A program made the position numbers and the translations under genes. Under the pieces are notes generated by a model. The model did no database searches. It was not told the origin of the DNA and saw nothing but the letters and a program-made list of their open reading frames with translations. Source: a virus. From it: a DNA stretch of 25,802 nucleotides. The stretch spans positions 1 through 25,802 of the IMG/VR virus record IMGVR_UViG_3300037585_001580; one strand, given 5' to 3'. Positions 4,924-24,082 of the stretch are shown piece after piece; the first letter of the stretch is position 1; every line of letters starts with the position of its first letter.

Positions 4924-5012
4924 TACAATGATATGTATATAAATTCGTTTGACTTAGGTCGGAAGTAAGCATAAAGCTGAAGAAACGCATTATCTTGAAG
5001 GAGGTGATGTGT

Positions 5013-5126
5013 ATGACTAAAATGACTTTGTGGTACTTTAAAAAAGAACAGTATTTATATAAACAAAAAAAACTAATAAGGAGTTTATTATGTGGCAAAG
5101 ACCAGAAATCAAAGAAATTAACGTAG
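5013..5126 (+). CDS. Small basic ORF behind a near-perfect Shine-Dalgarno, overlapping pqqA, 37 aa
   Basis: The ATG at 5013 is preceded by AAGGAGGTGAT (4998-5008), an almost complete match to the 16S rRNA 3' end and the strongest ribosome site in the window. The peptide is basic and aromatic (MTKMTLWYFKKEQ, then Lys/Tyr-rich) and ends at 5126. It overlaps the pqqA start at 5090 in another frame. It may be a true small phage protein, or a leader whose translation keeps the pqqA ribosome site open. The 89-nt leader before it contains GGTCGGAAGTAAGC. Nothing homologous can be named from sequence alone. Confidence 0.5.
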   Translation: MTKMTLWYFKKEQYLYKQKKLIRSLLCGKDQKSKKLT

Positions 5127-5164
5127 GCTTAGAGATTAACTGCTACGCTTGTGCTGAAATATAA
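5090..5164 (+). CDS. pqqA: PqqA, pyrroloquinoline quinone precursor peptide, 24 aa
   Basis: A 24-codon gene with a good ribosome site (AAGGAG, 5078-5083, six nt before ATG). The peptide starts MWQRPEIK and carries GLEINCY followed by ACAEI. It matches the PqqA pattern position by position: Met1, Trp2, Pro5, Gly13, Leu14, Glu15 and Tyr19 fall at the same numbers as in the 23-residue Klebsiella PqqA. Glu15 and Tyr19 are the two residues that the radical-SAM enzyme PqqE crosslinks, with PqqD as chaperone, to begin making PQQ, the cofactor of periplasmic alcohol and sugar dehydrogenases. Two Cys (18 and 21) flank Tyr19, which is unusual. No pqqB, C, D or E is seen in the window, so the peptide would depend on host enzymes. 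It is likely an auxiliary metabolic gene. Confidence 0.9.
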   Translation: MWQRPEIKEINVGLEINCYACAEI

Positions 5165-5179
5165 ATAGAGGATATTATT

Positions 5180-5686
5180 ATGATGAAAAGTAAAGGATAC
5201 TCTAAAGGTGGAGCTAAAATGATGAAAGCCAGAGGCGGTAAGATGGCTAAAGGCTATTCTAAGGGCGGAGCTAAAATGATGAAAGCCAGAGGCGGTAAGA
5301 TGGCCAAAGGTTATTCTAAAGGTGGAGCTAAGATGATGCGAGCTAACAAGGGTGGTTTTGGTGATTCTCCTAGTTTTAAAGGTTATACTAAAAAGCCTAT
5401 TACTAGGGCTGGAGTAAAAAATCCTAACAAGGGTGGTTTTACAGATCCTAAAAAGCTTATCAATAGAGCTAAAGTACTTGGTGGATCTAGAGCAATGAAT
5501 AGTCGAGCAAATCAAATAAAAGCTTTTAAAGAATTTTTAGGAGCTTTGCCTTTGCCAACTAGAACTGCACTTGTAAAAAAAGGTATAAAAAAATTAGTAA
5601 ACCCTGCACTTAAAAATTTAGGTACTGTAGGTAAAAGTAAAGTAAAAACTTTAAAAGATTTTAGAAGTTTAAAAAAGAAAAAATAA
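5180..5686 (+). CDS. Lys/Gly/Met-rich repeat protein, 168 aa
   Basis: The start ATG 5180 follows AGAGGA at 5167-5172. The N-terminal third holds 19-residue tandem repeats (motif KGYSKGGAKMMKARGGKMA) covering residues 5-42 twice, with a third partial copy to about residue 55. The rest is strongly basic, with an NKGGF motif occurring twice (near residues 56 and 79) and ends RSLKKKK. The protein has very high net positive charge, no membrane span and no enzyme motif. Similar Lys/Gly/Met repeat proteins occur in marine podoviruses, to my knowledge without known function. Charge suggests nucleic-acid or membrane-surface binding, but that is inference. It follows pqqA by 15 nt on the same strand. 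Confidence 0.75.
   Translation: MMKSKGYSKGGAKMMKARGGKMAKGYSKGGAKMMKARGGKMAKGYSKGGAKMMRANKGGFGDSPSFKGYTKKPITRAGVKNPNKGGFTDPKKLINRAKVLGGSRAMNSRANQIKAFKEFLGALPLPTRTALVKKGIKKLVNPALKNLGTVGKSKVKTLKDFRSLKKKK
5192..5344 (+). repeat. 57-bp in-frame tandem repeat, two full copies and one partial
   Basis: Copy 1 is 5192-5248, copy 2 5249-5305, and a partial third copy runs 5306-5344. Copies 1 and 2 encode identical peptides but differ at silent positions (for example GGATAC versus GGCTAT), so the peptide is kept while the DNA has drifted. That points to selection on the protein repeat rather than a fresh duplication. Confidence 0.9.
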
Positions 5687-5856: not shown

Positions 5857-6549
5857 ATGGCATACTTAACATCCAATATTCCATACTTTAAAGTATGGGT
5901 TCGTAAAGAGTTTACAAACAACCACAGAGATTATCATGGAGAGTTCATACATGGACTTGCCATAGCTGTAACAGCTATACCTGATAAATCTTTGTCTTTT
6001 CAAATTGTATTTACAGGTTGTGAAGATGAAGACAATAGACTAGAGAGTCCTCATGGTGGGGCTATGTGGGCTCGTATGCCAATACAATCTTTAGTGGCTG
6101 ATGAACAATTAGATGTATGGCCTCCAAGAATACCTAATCATTTCATTCAGCCTTGGGATTGTTCTAGTAGACATTTTAGTATAGTTCGTTATGACAGAAC
6201 TAGTAGTAGTCCTTGGATTACTAAAATAGATGGTAACTTTTATAATGCTAAATATTACTTTACTATTGATTATACTAACGGAGATGAGTTAACTAGTTTA
6301 GGAGATGACGTTGCTCAACACAAACAAAGTCACATATTAGCTATAACTAGTGGTGAATTTAAAGGTCAAATCGTAGCTCAACCAAACAATAGAGTGCGTG
6401 TTACTAATCCTGCTTTATGGGTTACAGGAAAAGGAGCTCCTGATTTTATACCAAGTCAACATGAGTTTTCTGCTGAAGAAGATGAATCCTATTTAAATCC
6501 TGAGTACACATTTAATAATTTATATTCTGATGAAGATACAGACAAGTAA
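5857..6549 (+). CDS. Conserved marine-phage protein, unknown function, 230 aa
   Basis: The product starts MAYLTSNIPYFKVWVRKEF and contains conserved-looking blocks GGAMWARMP (about 68-76), QPWDCSS (about 98-104), PSPWITKIDG-type text, HKQSHIL and PNNRVRVTNPALW. I recognise this as a conserved protein family of marine podoviruses, without a known function. It is soluble and rich in aromatic residues and beta-type patterns, with an acidic C-terminus (EEDESYLNPEYTFNNLYSDED). The ATG at 5857 lacks a Shine-Dalgarno and no other in-frame start exists upstream (stop at 5839-5841). The 3' end overlaps the exonuclease gene by 20 nt, suggesting coupled expression with the replication module. Confidence 0.75.
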   Translation: MAYLTSNIPYFKVWVRKEFTNNHRDYHGEFIHGLAIAVTAIPDKSLSFQIVFTGCEDEDNRLESPHGGAMWARMPIQSLVADEQLDVWPPRIPNHFIQPWDCSSRHFSIVRYDRTSSSPWITKIDGNFYNAKYYFTIDYTNGDELTSLGDDVAQHKQSHILAITSGEFKGQIVAQPNNRVRVTNPALWVTGKGAPDFIPSQHEFSAEEDESYLNPEYTFNNLYSDEDTDK

Positions 6550-7258
6550 CCAACGAATTATACTCACCGATGTTGTATTTGATAAAAAATATAACTACAA
6601 AGAATTAAAACGTAATGACGAAGAGATACGTACTTATTCTGTAAAAGATAAAAAAGTACCAAGTGTAACTACTATATTGTCAGCAACACAAAGCAAACAA
6701 AAACAAGATTCCTTACAAGCTTGGCGAGATAGAGTAGGCAATGAAGAAGCTGCACGGATCACGAAACAAGCTTCTACAAGAGGTACTGAAATGCACTATG
6801 TGTTAGAACAGTATTTAAATGGCCAGGGTTATTTGAATTTATCTGAGAAAGGTGAATTAGCTCGTACTATGGCTCATACAGTATTAGAAAACATGAGTGA
6901 TATAAATGTTATATATGGAACAGAAGTTAATTTAGAATATAAACAAAGATGGGCAGGCACTTGTGATTTAGTGTGTGAGTCTAACGGTGTATTGACATTA
7001 GGTGATTTTAAACAATCAAATAAACCTAAAAGAGAAGAATGGATTACAGACTATTATTATCAGCTAGCGGCTTACTCTTTAGCCCATAGTCTACATTTTG
7101 GAGAAATAGATAGATGCTTAATATTAATGTGTACTCCTCAACTTGTTTTTCAAAAGTTTGTTATGAGTAAAGATTTGTTAAATGAATACCAAGATCGTTG
7201 GTTAGCTAGGGTTGAAAAGTTTTATGCTTTAGCTATCAAAGATGCTTTAGATTTTTAG
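6530..7258 (+). CDS. PD-(D/E)XK exonuclease (RecB/Cas4-like), 242 aa
   Basis: The product has the ordered motifs of the PD-(D/E)XK nuclease fold: RGTEMH at 84-89 (the GTxxH element of RecB-type nucleases), GTCDLV with catalytic Asp146, then GDFK with Asp159 and Lys161, and the QxxxY element (Gln178, Tyr182) in YYYQLAAY. Such proteins degrade DNA ends and serve phage recombination or host-DNA turnover during replication. The start ATG 6530 lies inside the upstream gene. The stop overlaps the end of the convergent helicase gene by 12 bp, leaving no room for a terminator between them. Length is typical for a stand-alone phage exonuclease. Confidence 0.87.
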   Translation: MKIQTSNQRIILTDVVFDKKYNYKELKRNDEEIRTYSVKDKKVPSVTTILSATQSKQKQDSLQAWRDRVGNEEAARITKQASTRGTEMHYVLEQYLNGQGYLNLSEKGELARTMAHTVLENMSDINVIYGTEVNLEYKQRWAGTCDLVCESNGVLTLGDFKQSNKPKREEWITDYYYQLAAYSLAHSLHFGEIDRCLILMCTPQLVFQKFVMSKDLLNEYQDRWLARVEKFYALAIKDALDF

Positions 7259-8404
7259 GATATCTTCTCCTAATGTTTGGGCTGACAATTTTAATTTATT
7301 ATTTAAAGCATGCAATACGAAGCTATCAATTGTATTTTCAGAAATTAAATTTATATAATTTACCCGATTTGTTTGGCCTTTTCTATGTGCTCTGTCTTCT
7401 GATTGTACTCGTTCTTCTAAATTAAAATTATTACTAAAATATATTACAGTAGTAGCCGCAGTCAAAGTTAAACCTCTTCCAGCAGTTGCAGGATTAGATA
7501 CAAAGAACTGTACATTAGAATCATTTTGAAAAGCATGTACGTTATCGTGTCGTTGTTGTACAGATACTTCTCCGTAATAAACCACTACAGATTTTTGTCC
7601 GTATTTTTTTACTAAACTATCTTGTATTTGTTTTATGTTATGTATGTAGTTAGCCCAAATAATTACTTTACCTGTAGTTTCTTCTAATACATTATGTAGT
7701 TCAGTAATCTTACTACAGGGCAAATCTTTTATAGTGCCATCATCTGTTACTACAAAACCATTAGCTACTTGATGTAACTTAATAATCTCTGTAAGTTTAT
7801 TAGCATAAGTTGCCTCCTCATCACCAAGCACGGCTCTTGCATAATTTTTTAAATGTTCATAAACTTCAGCTTGTTCTTTAGACATAGGTATAATTCTAGT
7901 GTGGTATATTTTATCTGGTAAATCTAAACAATCTTTTTTCAAAGCTCTAAAACTAAACTTTTGTAGCAAAGGTAACAAATGTTCAGTGTTGTGAAAGTTT
8001 TTAGGTATCTGTATGACTTTACCATTTGGTCTTGTTATAGGTATAAGAATAGAATACGTTGCTCTAAATACGTAAAAATTATCTGTTCCTAATAACCCTG
8101 GTTTTAAAAACTCACACTGACTAAATAAATCTAAAGGGTTTTTTGTAACAGGAAAACCACTAAGTATTCTTTTGTAAGGTATATTCTTACACGACTGTAT
8201 AACATTTTTAGTTCTTTTAGCCGATCTGTTCTTTATAGTTGTAGACTCATCAACAATTACACAAGCTTTGTTTTGTAATTCTTTTAATAAAGGTATTATC
8301 TTCTTTACTTGAGCACTGTGTGAAAAAGCTTCTACATTCATTAAATAGTAGTTTAAACTATCTTTTTTAAAGATAAATTTTTTATCTTTTATGTCTATAC
8401 ACAT
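7247..8404 (-). CDS. SNF2-like SF2 helicase, C-terminal part (motifs II-VI) of a frame-split gene
   Basis: This frame holds the second part of a SNF2-type DNA helicase/translocase: motif II VDES (51-54), motif III LSGFPVTKNP (81-90), and near the end NPATAGRGLTLTAA and QSEDRAHRKGQ, the motif V and VI signatures including the arginine finger region. The ATP-binding part (Walker A) is in the neighbouring frame 8382-8678. The start ATG at 8404 follows a stop in its own frame (TAA ATG), with AAGG just upstream. Either the two parts are made separately and assemble, or a one-base indel or ribosomal shift joins them. It is transcribed against the flanking replication genes, and its stop overlaps the exonuclease stop. 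Confidence 0.85.
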   Translation of the reverse strand: MCIDIKDKKFIFKKDSLNYYLMNVEAFSHSAQVKKIIPLLKELQNKACVIVDESTTIKNRSAKRTKNVIQSCKNIPYKRILSGFPVTKNPLDLFSQCEFLKPGLLGTDNFYVFRATYSILIPITRPNGKVIQIPKNFHNTEHLLPLLQKFSFRALKKDCLDLPDKIYHTRIIPMSKEQAEVYEHLKNYARAVLGDEEATYANKLTEIIKLHQVANGFVVTDDGTIKDLPCSKITELHNVLEETTGKVIIWANYIHNIKQIQDSLVKKYGQKSVVVYYGEVSVQQRHDNVHAFQNDSNVQFFVSNPATAGRGLTLTAATTVIYFSNNFNLEERVQSEDRAHRKGQTNRVNYINLISENTIDSFVLHALNNKLKLSAQTLGEDILKI

Positions 8405-8678
8405 TTACCTTAGCCTTACTATGTATTTCTATCTCGTCCCACCAATTCATATATACAGAATTAGGAGCTATTACTAATACAAAATCTACTAGCCCCTTAT
8501 GATACAAATAAGTCATGTTATCGATGCTAACTTTTGTTTTACCTGTACCCATCTCCATAAAGTATGCAAAATACTCTCTGTTAACCCCGTTTTCTAAGGC
8601 TTTTTGTTGGTGGCTCATTGGTTTAGTTTTATATACTTCAATACCCATATAAGATATATTACAAATAATTGTTGACAT
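8382..8678 (-). CDS. SNF2-like SF2 helicase, N-terminal part (Walker A), frame-split
   Basis: This 98-aa frame carries PMSHQQKAL (20-28, Q-motif-like), Walker A MEMGTGKTK (41-49) and VIAPNSVYMNWWDEI (motif Ia region, 69-83), then stops inside a 23-nt overlap with the downstream frame. It cannot be a helicase alone because motifs II-VI are in 7247-8404. Deleting one base from the T4 run at 8387-8390 (A4 on the coding strand) joins the frames and reads smoothly into the region before LMNVEAF, where related phage proteins continue. No clear Shine-Dalgarno precedes ATG 8678; a second ATG lies ten codons in. The start region overlaps the promoter of the divergent gene at 8725. Confidence 0.8.
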   Translation of the reverse strand: MSTIICNISYMGIEVYKTKPMSHQQKALENGVNREYFAYFMEMGTGKTKVSIDNMTYLYHKGLVDFVLVIAPNSVYMNWWDEIEIHSKAKVNVYRHKR

Positions 8679-22360: not shown

Positions 22361-22774
22361 ATGACTATTACTGAATCAAAATTATGGGGTTGGATTAACC
22401 AGATTCAAAAGACAGAAAAGTCTTGGCATCTATTTAGAATTGAATCCTCTACAATCAATGGAATACCTGATGTTAATGCTTGTATTAATGGTAAGGATTT
22501 TTGGATAGAATTGAAGTGTAACAGAGGTAAGAATTTAGGTGTTAGCAAGTTTCAATCTGTTTGGCATCTTAAAAGAAAACAATCTGGTGGTAAATGTTTT
22601 ATTCTGAATGCGTCTAGCACGAAGAGAAGGCTTGAAGTTTTCGAGGTGCGAGAATCACGTTCTCGTTCTCGTTGCCCTTGCATCACGCATCTCGGTTCAG
22701 TTCAGTTTCAGTTCACTGCTGCTCCGGGGCTGGCCCGGGTCCGGGAATCAATATTATTAATGAGGGGTTTATAA
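22361..22774 (+). CDS. VRR-NUC-type PD-(D/E)XK nuclease with repeat-derived C-terminal tail, 137 aa
   Basis: The first ~95 residues have the VRR-NUC pattern: GIPDVNA (34-40, catalytic Asp37), WIELK (48-52, Glu50 and Lys52) and Gln65, as in small stand-alone phage nucleases thought to act on branched DNA. After about residue 96 (RESRSRSRCPC and onward) the frame runs into the first CTCGTT-type GC-rich element and continues for some 40 residues of unusual Ser/Arg/Gly composition. That tail probably results from the element lying over the original gene end. The weak AGAGTG before ATG 22361 is the only ribosome site. It is the first gene of the rightward half of the island. Confidence 0.72.
   Translation: MTITESKLWGWINQIQKTEKSWHLFRIESSTINGIPDVNACINGKDFWIELKCNRGKNLGVSKFQSVWHLKRKQSGGKCFILNASSTKRRLEVFEVRESRSRSRCPCITHLGSVQFQFTAAPGLARVRESILLMRGL
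22649..22747 (+). repeat. GC-rich CTCGTT element, copy 1 (inside the nuclease ORF)
   Basis: CGAGAA (22649-22654) can pair with TTCTCG (22660-22665). A short CGTTCT hexamer run (22658-22675) follows, then a linker with repeated TTCAG (TTCAGTTCAGTTTCAGTT, from 22696) and a GC-rich end with CCCGGG and CCGGG (22734-22745). Order and composition match copies 2-4, but here the hexamers overlap the 3' end of a coding frame. Confidence 0.7.
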
Positions 22775-22781
22775 AAAAAGA

Positions 22782-22810
22782 GTTGTAATGTGTCTTATAT
22801 CTGTTATGAT
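22782..22810 (+). promoter_or_regulatory. Promoter with half-site of the 18-bp dyad
   Basis: TTGTAA (22783-22788), 16 nt, then TATGAT (22805-22810), form a modest sigma70-like promoter before the gene at 22840. GTCTTATA (22792-22799) between the boxes is the conserved right half of the dyad; the left half is degenerate. Confidence 0.35.
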
Positions 22811-22839
22811 GATATTTTAACAATATAAAAGGTGAATGT

Positions 22840-23007
22840 ATGAAAGAAGAATTTTTAAAAGGGTTGCTGAAGTACGGCAGAGAAAAAGGTTTTATAGATG
22901 ACAAGCCTGAAGAAGGAAAAACTTATACCTTGGTGGGTGTGGGCAAGTGCATTGCTAACGGAAACAGTTGGCAAGACTCGGAGGTGAAGAAGAACGACAA
23001 AAAATAA
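22840..23007 (+). CDS. Hypothetical protein, 55 aa
   Basis: ATG 22840 is preceded by AAAGGTGA. The protein MKEEFLKGLLKYGREKGF, then EEGKTYTLVGVGKCIANGNS and a Lys-rich end, resembles a small basic alpha/beta protein. Base use becomes GC-richer towards the 3' end, unlike neighbours. The stop at 23005-23007 is followed within 9 nt by element copy 2, giving a promoter-gene-element unit. Confidence 0.65.
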   Translation: MKEEFLKGLLKYGREKGFIDDKPEEGKTYTLVGVGKCIANGNSWQDSEVKKNDKK

Positions 23008-23016
23008 ATCGTAACT

Positions 23017-23100
23017 CTCGTTCTCGTTCTCGTTCTCGTTGCAACGAGAACGAGGCTTTAGTTTAAGTTTCAGTTACCCGGCAGCTGGCAGCATGATCCG
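23017..23100 (+). repeat. GC-rich CTCGTT element, copy 2
   Basis: Four CTCGTT hexamers (23017-23040) are followed by GC and AACGAGAACGAG (23043-23054), which pairs perfectly with the last two hexamers in a 12-bp stem. Then comes an AGTT-rich linker (to about 23085) and a GC-rich part where CCCGG (23087-23091) can pair with CCGGG (23098-23102). The element starts 9 nt after a stop codon. Confidence 0.82.
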
Positions 23101-23102
23101 GG

Positions 23103-23130
23103 ACACAGGGAAGCTGTGTGATTTTTTTTT
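23103..23130 (+). terminator. Rho-independent terminator at the end of element copy 2
   Basis: ACACAG (23103-23108), 5-nt loop GGAAG, CTGTGT (23114-23119), then GA and nine T (23122-23130). It ends transcription of the 55-aa gene before the promoter at 23141. Confidence 0.75.
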
Positions 23131-23140
23131 ATTTTTTTAC

Positions 23141-23172
23141 TTGCTTTATTATTATATGAGATGTATCTTATA
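23141..23172 (+). promoter_or_regulatory. Promoter with near-perfect 18-bp dyad
   Basis: TTGCTT (23141-23146), 17 nt, TATCTT (23164-23169) give a weak sigma70-like promoter. TATGAGAT-GT-ATCTTATA (23155-23172) matches the perfect dyad at 22062 with one change in the arms and covers the -10 box, 26 nt before ATG 23199. Confidence 0.5.
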
Positions 23173-23198
23173 TATATAACTTATAGGAGAATAAAAAA

Positions 23199-23759
23199 AT
23201 GAACTTTGAAACTGAACAACAAATATATAATATGTTAACTGAAAGCACTGGAACGCACTTTCTAGATAGTGGGGGTGGCAGTGGTAGACATTGGCAACAA
23301 AACAAAAAAAGAACTTTGGAGGACTTCAAAAAAGATAAAGTTTTTATTTACGAACCTGATGATATTTATAGTATTTGTAAAAGTGTATTTCATCACTTGG
23401 TTGAAAGTGTCCGATATAATAAAGAGTTAAACGAGGATCTAGAAAACTTTTTAAAAGCTAGTAAAGAGGACAATTGGAGGGTACCCGTTGAACAATATCT
23501 ACAGTTACACAATAAAGATAAAAAAATAGATCATATAAATACATATAATGAGGAATGTGTATTATCCCAAACGTTGCAAATAATAACTATTGGGGACATG
23601 TACGAAAATGAAACTGTTGCTTTATCAATACACAACGGTGCAGATGTTAGGGGTGGATATACCGATTTTAAAATATTTGATATTGATACAGATATGTTTT
23701 ATATGTGGCATCCTGAACACTATGACTATTTAGTTAAAAGCGAGGGGGTGGGTTCATGA
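23199..23759 (+). CDS. Conserved phage accessory protein, 186 aa
   Basis: ATG 23199 follows ATAGGAGAATAA. The N-terminal block MLTESTGTHFLDSGGGSGRHW (cut: LTESTGTHFLDSGGG and GRHWQQN) is a conserved signature I have seen in phage-encoded accessory proteins of unknown function. The rest is acidic and aromatic (IYEPDDIYSICKSVFHHLVES; later ALSIHNGADVRGGYTDFKIF). It has no membrane span and no clear enzyme motif. The stop (23757-23759) is followed after 9 nt by CTCGTT element copy 3. It is a good example of the promoter/dyad, gene, element unit in the right half of the island. Confidence 0.75.
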   Translation: MNFETEQQIYNMLTESTGTHFLDSGGGSGRHWQQNKKRTLEDFKKDKVFIYEPDDIYSICKSVFHHLVESVRYNKELNEDLENFLKASKEDNWRVPVEQYLQLHNKDKKIDHINTYNEECVLSQTLQIITIGDMYENETVALSIHNGADVRGGYTDFKIFDIDTDMFYMWHPEHYDYLVKSEGVGS

Positions 23760-23768
23760 GTTCCCTTT

Positions 23769-23847
23769 CTCGTTCTCGTTCTCGTTGGGCAACGCAAATG
23801 CGTTGCCCTTTCAGTCTAGTTACAGCGGCCCGGGCCAGGGAAGCTGC
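23769..23847 (+). repeat. GC-rich CTCGTT element, copy 3
   Basis: Three CTCGTT hexamers (23769-23786), then GGGCAACGCA (23787-23796), two A, and TGCGTTGCCC (23799-23808), a perfect 10-bp stem. A short linker with CTAGTTAC follows, then GGCCCGGGCC (23827-23836), a self-complementary dyad enclosed by CAGC (23823) and GCTG (23843). The element begins 9 nt after the stop of the 186-aa gene. Confidence 0.85.
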
Positions 23848-23865
23848 AAGCTCAAGGAGGACAGT

Positions 23866-23979
23866 ATGATTTTTGTCGGTGTACTCATTGGGTTTGTGTT
23901 CTTGGTTTTCCTAGTCTTGCGGTGGTTTCTATTACTGACAATCGTGAGCCTTGCGATCTGGCTACTGGTGACACTGTGA
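23866..23979 (+). CDS. Very hydrophobic small membrane protein, 37 aa
   Basis: ATG 23866 has an excellent ribosome site AAGGAGGAC; a longer frame from 23785 would start inside element copy 3 and is unlikely. The peptide MIFVGVLIGFVFLVFLVLRW, then FLLLTIVSLAIWLLVTL, is hydrophobic except for one Arg (residue 19), giving two short or one long membrane segment. GC content is well above that of the neighbours, suggesting a recent acquisition. The stop (23977-23979) is followed after a single base by element copy 4. Confidence 0.7.
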   Translation: MIFVGVLIGFVFLVFLVLRWFLLLTIVSLAIWLLVTL

Positions 23980-23980
23980 T

Positions 23981-24057
23981 CTCGTTCTCGTTCTCGTTGC
24001 CGAAGGGAAATGGGCTTTTGATTAGTTATAGTTAGCTGCCTGGTACCAGGAAGCAGC
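23981..24057 (+). repeat. GC-rich CTCGTT element, copy 4
   Basis: Three CTCGTT hexamers (23981-23998), a G/A-rich stretch, an AGTTATAGTTA linker, then GCTG before the perfect palindrome CCTGGTACCAGG (24039-24050), AA and GCAGC (24053-24057). The outer GCTGC/GCAGC stem encloses the palindrome. It starts one base after the stop of the 37-aa gene. Confidence 0.82.
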
Positions 24058-24082
24058 AGAAATAAATATTTATGAGGACATA

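Follow-up and report, generated by a model that had tools for sequence, protein, structure and literature searches.

PqqA is consumed one for one as the precursor of PQQ: it is crosslinked by PqqE/PqqD, after which PqqB, PqqC and peptidases act. Phages are already known to encode this peptide, as reported in 2020 and in 2026 (PMC7678222, PMC13188868). The 2020 case, phage VP_266 of a Lake Baikal methylotroph, also encodes a methanol dehydrogenase, and its PqqA was proposed to raise host PQQ (PMC7678222). The 2026 study dealt with pqqA, pqqE and pqqD in reservoir-sediment viruses and listed viral pqqA as an auxiliary metabolic gene; the part of that source considered here treats pqqA as a phosphate-solubilisation gene and holds no analysis of the peptide or its residues (PMC13188868). 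The text of a survey of auxiliary genes in HTVC023P-type phages makes no mention of PQQ (PMC9599517). Whereas VP_266 is a freshwater methylotroph phage, the locus described here is a lone pqqA, encoding an alphaproteobacterial-type peptide, in a marine phage of the HTVC023P type (PMC7678222). What is new concerns the breadth of pqqA across phages, the substrate-only arrangement, the residue conservation, the host inference, the lack of this pathway from SAR11 and a local glutamine riboswitch.

The window, i.e. the whole stretch of DNA analysed, comprises 25,802 nucleotides (positions 1 to 25,802 of IMG/VR virus record IMGVR_UViG_3300037585_001580). A reading-frame check showed that the 24-aa ORF and its stop occupy exactly the positions given for pqqA in Table 1, as an earlier note made from the sequence alone had proposed, and Met1, Trp2, Pro5, Gly13, Leu14, Glu15 and Tyr19 were all found where that note had placed them. 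Both curated family cut-offs were passed: the peptide scored 31.4 bits against TIGR02107, the NCBI PqqA equivalog model (cut-off 20, E 1.3e-7), and 25.9 bits against the Pfam PqqA model PF08042 (gathering score 21.1). A six-frame search located PqqA at one place only in the whole record (E 4.7e-8). Length, M-W-x2-P start and G-[LF]-E-x3-Y core are those of known PqqA; unlike known pqqA, the window gene does not lie beside pqqB-E, is phage-borne and is accompanied by no other detected PQQ gene. Adjacency to pqqB-E is nevertheless not essential for this family, several host-type genomes also having pqqA away from the operon. No PHROGs family matched the peptide, and named phages gave no useful match to the region by blastn or to the peptide by tblastn; phage homologues were recovered by HMM and pattern searches. 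Judged from its sequence, the ORF is a genuine PqqA. A length of only 24 aa might suggest a chance ORF, but the probability of this is next to nil and homology refutes it: the DNA pattern for M-W-x2-P-x7-G-[L/F]-E-[I/V]-x2-Y occurred once in the window and in 0/100 dinucleotide shuffles, and there are conserved syntenic homologues as well as matching ORFs on a large set of viral contigs (see below). The gene sits among phage genes (terminase, primase, helicase, polymerase) and has cellular homologues in a candidate host lineage, as is expected of an auxiliary metabolic gene.

Table 1. Features of the pqqA region (positions are those of the window)
Feature	Positions	Strand	Evidence
Glutamine riboswitch aptamer RF01739, 98 nt upstream of pqqA start	4944..4991	+	Rfam, 47.7 bits (gathering 35)
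Strong ribosome-binding region of leader ORF, GAAGGAGGTGATG	4997..5009	+	Near-invariant in aligned relatives
Leader ORF MTKMTLWYFKKEQ..., 37 aa, overlapping pqqA start out of frame	5013..5126	+	N-terminal part conserved
Shine-Dalgarno-like AAGGAG, 6 nt 5' of pqqA ATG	5078..5083	+	Read from sequence
pqqA, 24 aa, MWQRPEIKEINVGLEINCYACAEI, presumed crosslinked residues Glu15 and Tyr19	5090..5164	+	TIGR02107, PF08042, syntenic homologues
Repetitive K/G-rich ORF with KGYSKGGAKMMKARGGKMA repeats, downstream of pqqA	5180..5686	+	Sequence reading, comparison with relatives

Analysis of the distribution of this gene among viral contigs was also performed. One IMG/VR pattern scan returned at least 120 contigs; all of the 120 matches listed were ORFs of small size (23-24 aa where lengths are given), and among the matches listed GG-rich motifs lay upstream of nearly all the other phage pqqA ORFs. 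The search for PqqA-like ORFs of 20-30 aa in phages, extended over several pattern scans, yielded at least about 255 IMG/VR contigs with PqqA genes of 23-30 aa, an approximate total that allows for the same contig being returned twice. Three peptide types were distinguished among phages, that of the window being MWKSPVVKEVAVGLEINCYACAEI; representatives of the types passed TIGR02107 at 34-43 bits, the window type being represented there by a cellular homologue and a phage MWSKP variant. Within the window's own phage group the occurrence of pqqA was patchy (8/50 contigs), and five of these eight contigs carried the gene far from the window's site, as judged by position relative to the neighbour gene, which suggests repeated gain. 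Since hundreds of other aquatic phages carry pqqA, the provision of this raw material by phages to hosts that make PQQ appears to be common and little noticed.

The loss of Glu15 and Tyr19 in homologous phages, which the earlier note had named as an outcome contrary to its proposal, was not seen. With the two residues left free in the scan, both were present in 124/124 matches and 99/99 distinct contexts among the matches listed; some of the 124 had first been retrieved with patterns requiring Glu and Tyr, and all 35 loci new to the free-residue scan had both. Synonymous codons were both in use in the 99 contexts (GAA 79 and GAG 20 for Glu15, TAT 67 and TAC 32 for Tyr19). Syntenic copies were found through the neighbouring gene and are hence free of pattern bias. 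Their synonymous versus nonsynonymous codon differences were 8 vs 3 between the window and L029, 8 vs 1 between L043 and L029, and 2 vs 2 between the window and L043. At codons that the pattern leaves free, pN/pS was 0.25 for window-like copies and 0.52 for all type-c copies, which indicates that constraint lies mainly in the core.

Pfam showed neither pqqB-E nor a PQQ-dependent dehydrogenase in the 26 ORFs of the window to which it was applied, in agreement with the claim that the window holds no other pqq gene. The proposal that the phage supplies only the substrate was further supported among 50 PqqA phage contigs, many of them fragments in which absence is not proof for a given phage: PqqE occurred in 0/50 and a PQQ dehydrogenase in 1/50. 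The sole contig of the 50 also to encode a PQQ-repeat protein (likely dehydrogenase) was L143/G133, of 72 kb; its arrangement resembles that of VP_266, with PqqA and a dehydrogenase in one phage (PMC7678222). PqqA alone, without processing enzymes, is also the expected look of a competitive decoy, i.e. a peptide that would tie up host PqqD/PqqE, lower PQQ and redirect the cell. This reading is improbable, considering that both crosslinked residues are always kept, unlike in a dead-end decoy, that a wild-type-like substrate would simply be processed, and that several host-type genomes themselves hold extra normal pqqA copies. Even less probable is a PqqA-like peptide serving another radical-SAM pathway, or acting as a free peptide, rather than PQQ synthesis: a host homologue gave a weak, sub-threshold sactipeptide match (14 bits, cut-off 42), but the equivalog PqqA score was well above cut-off, identical peptides occur in genomes with PqqE, and no PqqE-type radical-SAM gene was present in the 50 PqqA phages.

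The elements around the gene follow one another as riboswitch, ribosome-binding site, leader ORF, pqqA with its own AAGGAG, and K/G-rich ORF. In the riboswitch alignment (11 sequences, 9 distinct) 94.9% of cells kept the three helices, and compensatory changes were present; these helix counts use the known three-way junction, as RNAalifold drew the first helix wrongly. The leader ORF begins MTKMTLWYFKKE, and its N-terminal part was conserved in relatives with and without pqqA; it had no family match, and the K/G-rich ORF had none in Pfam or PHROGs. Three near relatives (L008, L029 and L043) carry pqqA at the window's site, which is empty in other relatives. In L075 and L009 the riboswitch and small leader ORF are followed directly by the K/G-rich ORF with no pqqA between; because the two ORFs adjoin there, a pqqA unit of about 75-100 nt is absent from these contigs.

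A riboswitch scan over 200 viral loci, nearly all PqqA-bearing, gave 14 matches, about half of them distant or on the other strand, and the glutamine riboswitch was also found in pqqA-less relatives of the window phage. A role as general partner of pqqA was therefore rejected. As pqqA-less relatives have the riboswitch and most PqqA phages are without it, it belongs to the insertion site and its link to pqqA is local; pqqA apparently inherited it from that site. Its position suggests that the riboswitch may govern pqqA in the window phage. More widely in this pelagiphage-like group, it heads an operon with a conserved small ORF (MxKMxLWYxKKE...), with or without pqqA. In a tRNA-bearing phage (L329, 1141-1491; also L274 and L399), a glutamine riboswitch precedes pqqA by about 245 nt, which may be a second, independent case of the pairing. 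Marine phages such as Melnitz and Mosig carry the glutamine riboswitch RF01739; that of Melnitz sits in the tmRNA gene, whereas that of the window precedes the small ORF, pqqA and the repeat ORF (PMC9004378).

The large terminase was 82.7% identical to that of Pelagibacter phage HTVC023P over 92%, 64% to HTVC027P and 62% to 023Pt_psg01. Along the window, structural genes come first, followed by pqqA, the genes for an SNF2-type helicase, a primase, a UvrD-type helicase, DNA polymerase A and a C5 methylase, and lastly those for the terminases. The content shared with the three relatives comprises helicase, primase, DNA polymerase A and terminases, the terminase having been aligned and the HTVC023P replication genes compared by gene content. 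On these comparisons the window phage is a relative of the HTVC023P-type podoviruses (pelagiphages); unlike the window, the records of all three lack pqqA. Some further features of the genome, which has 33% GC, were recorded. The SNF2-type helicase (7247-8678, minus strand) is read in two frames, with a break near 8382-8404, and is a single ORF in HTVC023P; the split may be a true frameshift or may stem from an error in the sequence. At 22661-24060, in the stretch that separates the methylase module from the terminase, there are four interspersed composite elements; they combine TCTCGT repeats with a short hairpin, AGTTTCAGTTA-like sequence and a GC-rich imperfect hairpin. A 230-aa protein at 5857-6549 is frequent in this group of phages, with 298 IMG/VR stretches; it bears the PHROGs name 'ferredoxin' (phrog_3704) and has no Pfam match.

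The identity of the host bears directly on the use of the peptide. The window-type peptide was found at 29 loci in a genome scan, all alphaproteobacterial and mostly from small marine MAGs and SAGs. The nearest cellular PqqA, that of AG-430-C17, was identical to the window peptide at 18/23 positions; other phage types reached up to 23/23. The PqqE cut-off was exceeded in 22 of the 26 genomes bearing window-type PqqA, and in 24/28 genomes of the host-candidate order (the order of AG-896-G13). A PQQ alcohol dehydrogenase model exceeded its cut-off in 14 of 21 PqqA-bearing candidate genomes, a count that leaves out two SAR11 genomes, neither with such a match. Among SAR11-order genomes, PqqE and PqqA were found in 0/147; these scans had no internal positive control, and the same models match in other scans. 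The SAR11 order was set by two member genomes with exact matches to four 16S probes, whose sequences we take to be those that identify SAR11. Some NCBI titles name host-type MAGs 'Pelagibacterales', and those MAGs fall in the other order, not in SAR11. A tetranucleotide comparison did not separate SAR11 and the PQQ-making candidates as host. The earlier note's idea of a host that already makes PQQ thus held for the candidate order and failed for SAR11, the host of the cultured relatives; of its methylotroph-like host, the PQQ alcohol dehydrogenase was present in most candidates, with methylotrophy at most a possibility.

HTVC023P and HTVC027P both infect SAR11 strain HTCC1062. By terminase these are the closest relatives in culture (83% and 64% identity), and with neither PqqE nor PqqA in the SAR11-order genomes, the peptide would be useless if the host were SAR11. 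The gene could then be a real PqqA carried as dead weight, recently picked up from a previous host by a phage now in SAR11 and without present function. We regard this as unlikely, given that the syntenic copies retain the frame, the length and both Glu15 and Tyr19, that their differences are mainly synonymous, and that a ribosome-binding site precedes each of them. If the phage gene is useful, the lack of PqqA and PqqE in SAR11 implies a host other than SAR11 proper. The host of the window phage is probably a PQQ maker from outside SAR11, the likeliest being a streamlined marine alphaproteobacterium. Several small marine alphaproteobacterial genomes (L374-L376, L381, L384, L386-L388, L391 and L393) carry pqqA outside the pqq operon, as one or two extra copies per genome adjoining cysS-like, lysR-type and other genes. 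Such copies in host-type genomes fit an amount of PqqA that is limiting and worth raising.

Our preferred explanation, held with fairly good confidence, is that pqqA is a substrate-only auxiliary metabolic gene serving the PqqB-E of a PQQ-making alphaproteobacterial host. The patchy occurrence of pqqA in the phage group and the pN/pS of 0.52 for all type-c copies count against it. For expression, modification and benefit we infer the following course. The phage peptide would be translated during infection and would add to the host precursor pool; host PqqD and PqqE would bind it and crosslink Glu15 to Tyr19, and host PqqB, PqqC and peptidases would complete PQQ. As one peptide is consumed per cofactor, extra PqqA would mean more PQQ for the periplasmic alcohol dehydrogenases of the host, through which electrons would be fed to respiration while progeny are made.

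Because PqqA is a stoichiometric, consumed precursor, hardly any gene smaller than the 75-nt pqqA could serve a phage to raise a host cofactor. In phages pqqA goes uncounted, since its length is below what many gene callers accept and PHROGs has no match to it. A broader picture can be offered only tentatively, its chances being well short of even: aquatic phages, including a pelagiphage branch that switched from SAR11 to PQQ-making alphaproteobacteria, may widely deliver only the RiPP precursor, and in that branch the riboswitch may tie delivery to the glutamine level, so that PQQ supply would follow nitrogen state. If the gene is functional, hundreds of aquatic phages would tune PQQ-dependent alcohol oxidation. 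The gene may also serve to indicate the host: phages with PqqA would be expected to infect PQQ makers, and would in this way be set apart from near-identical-looking SAR11 phages.
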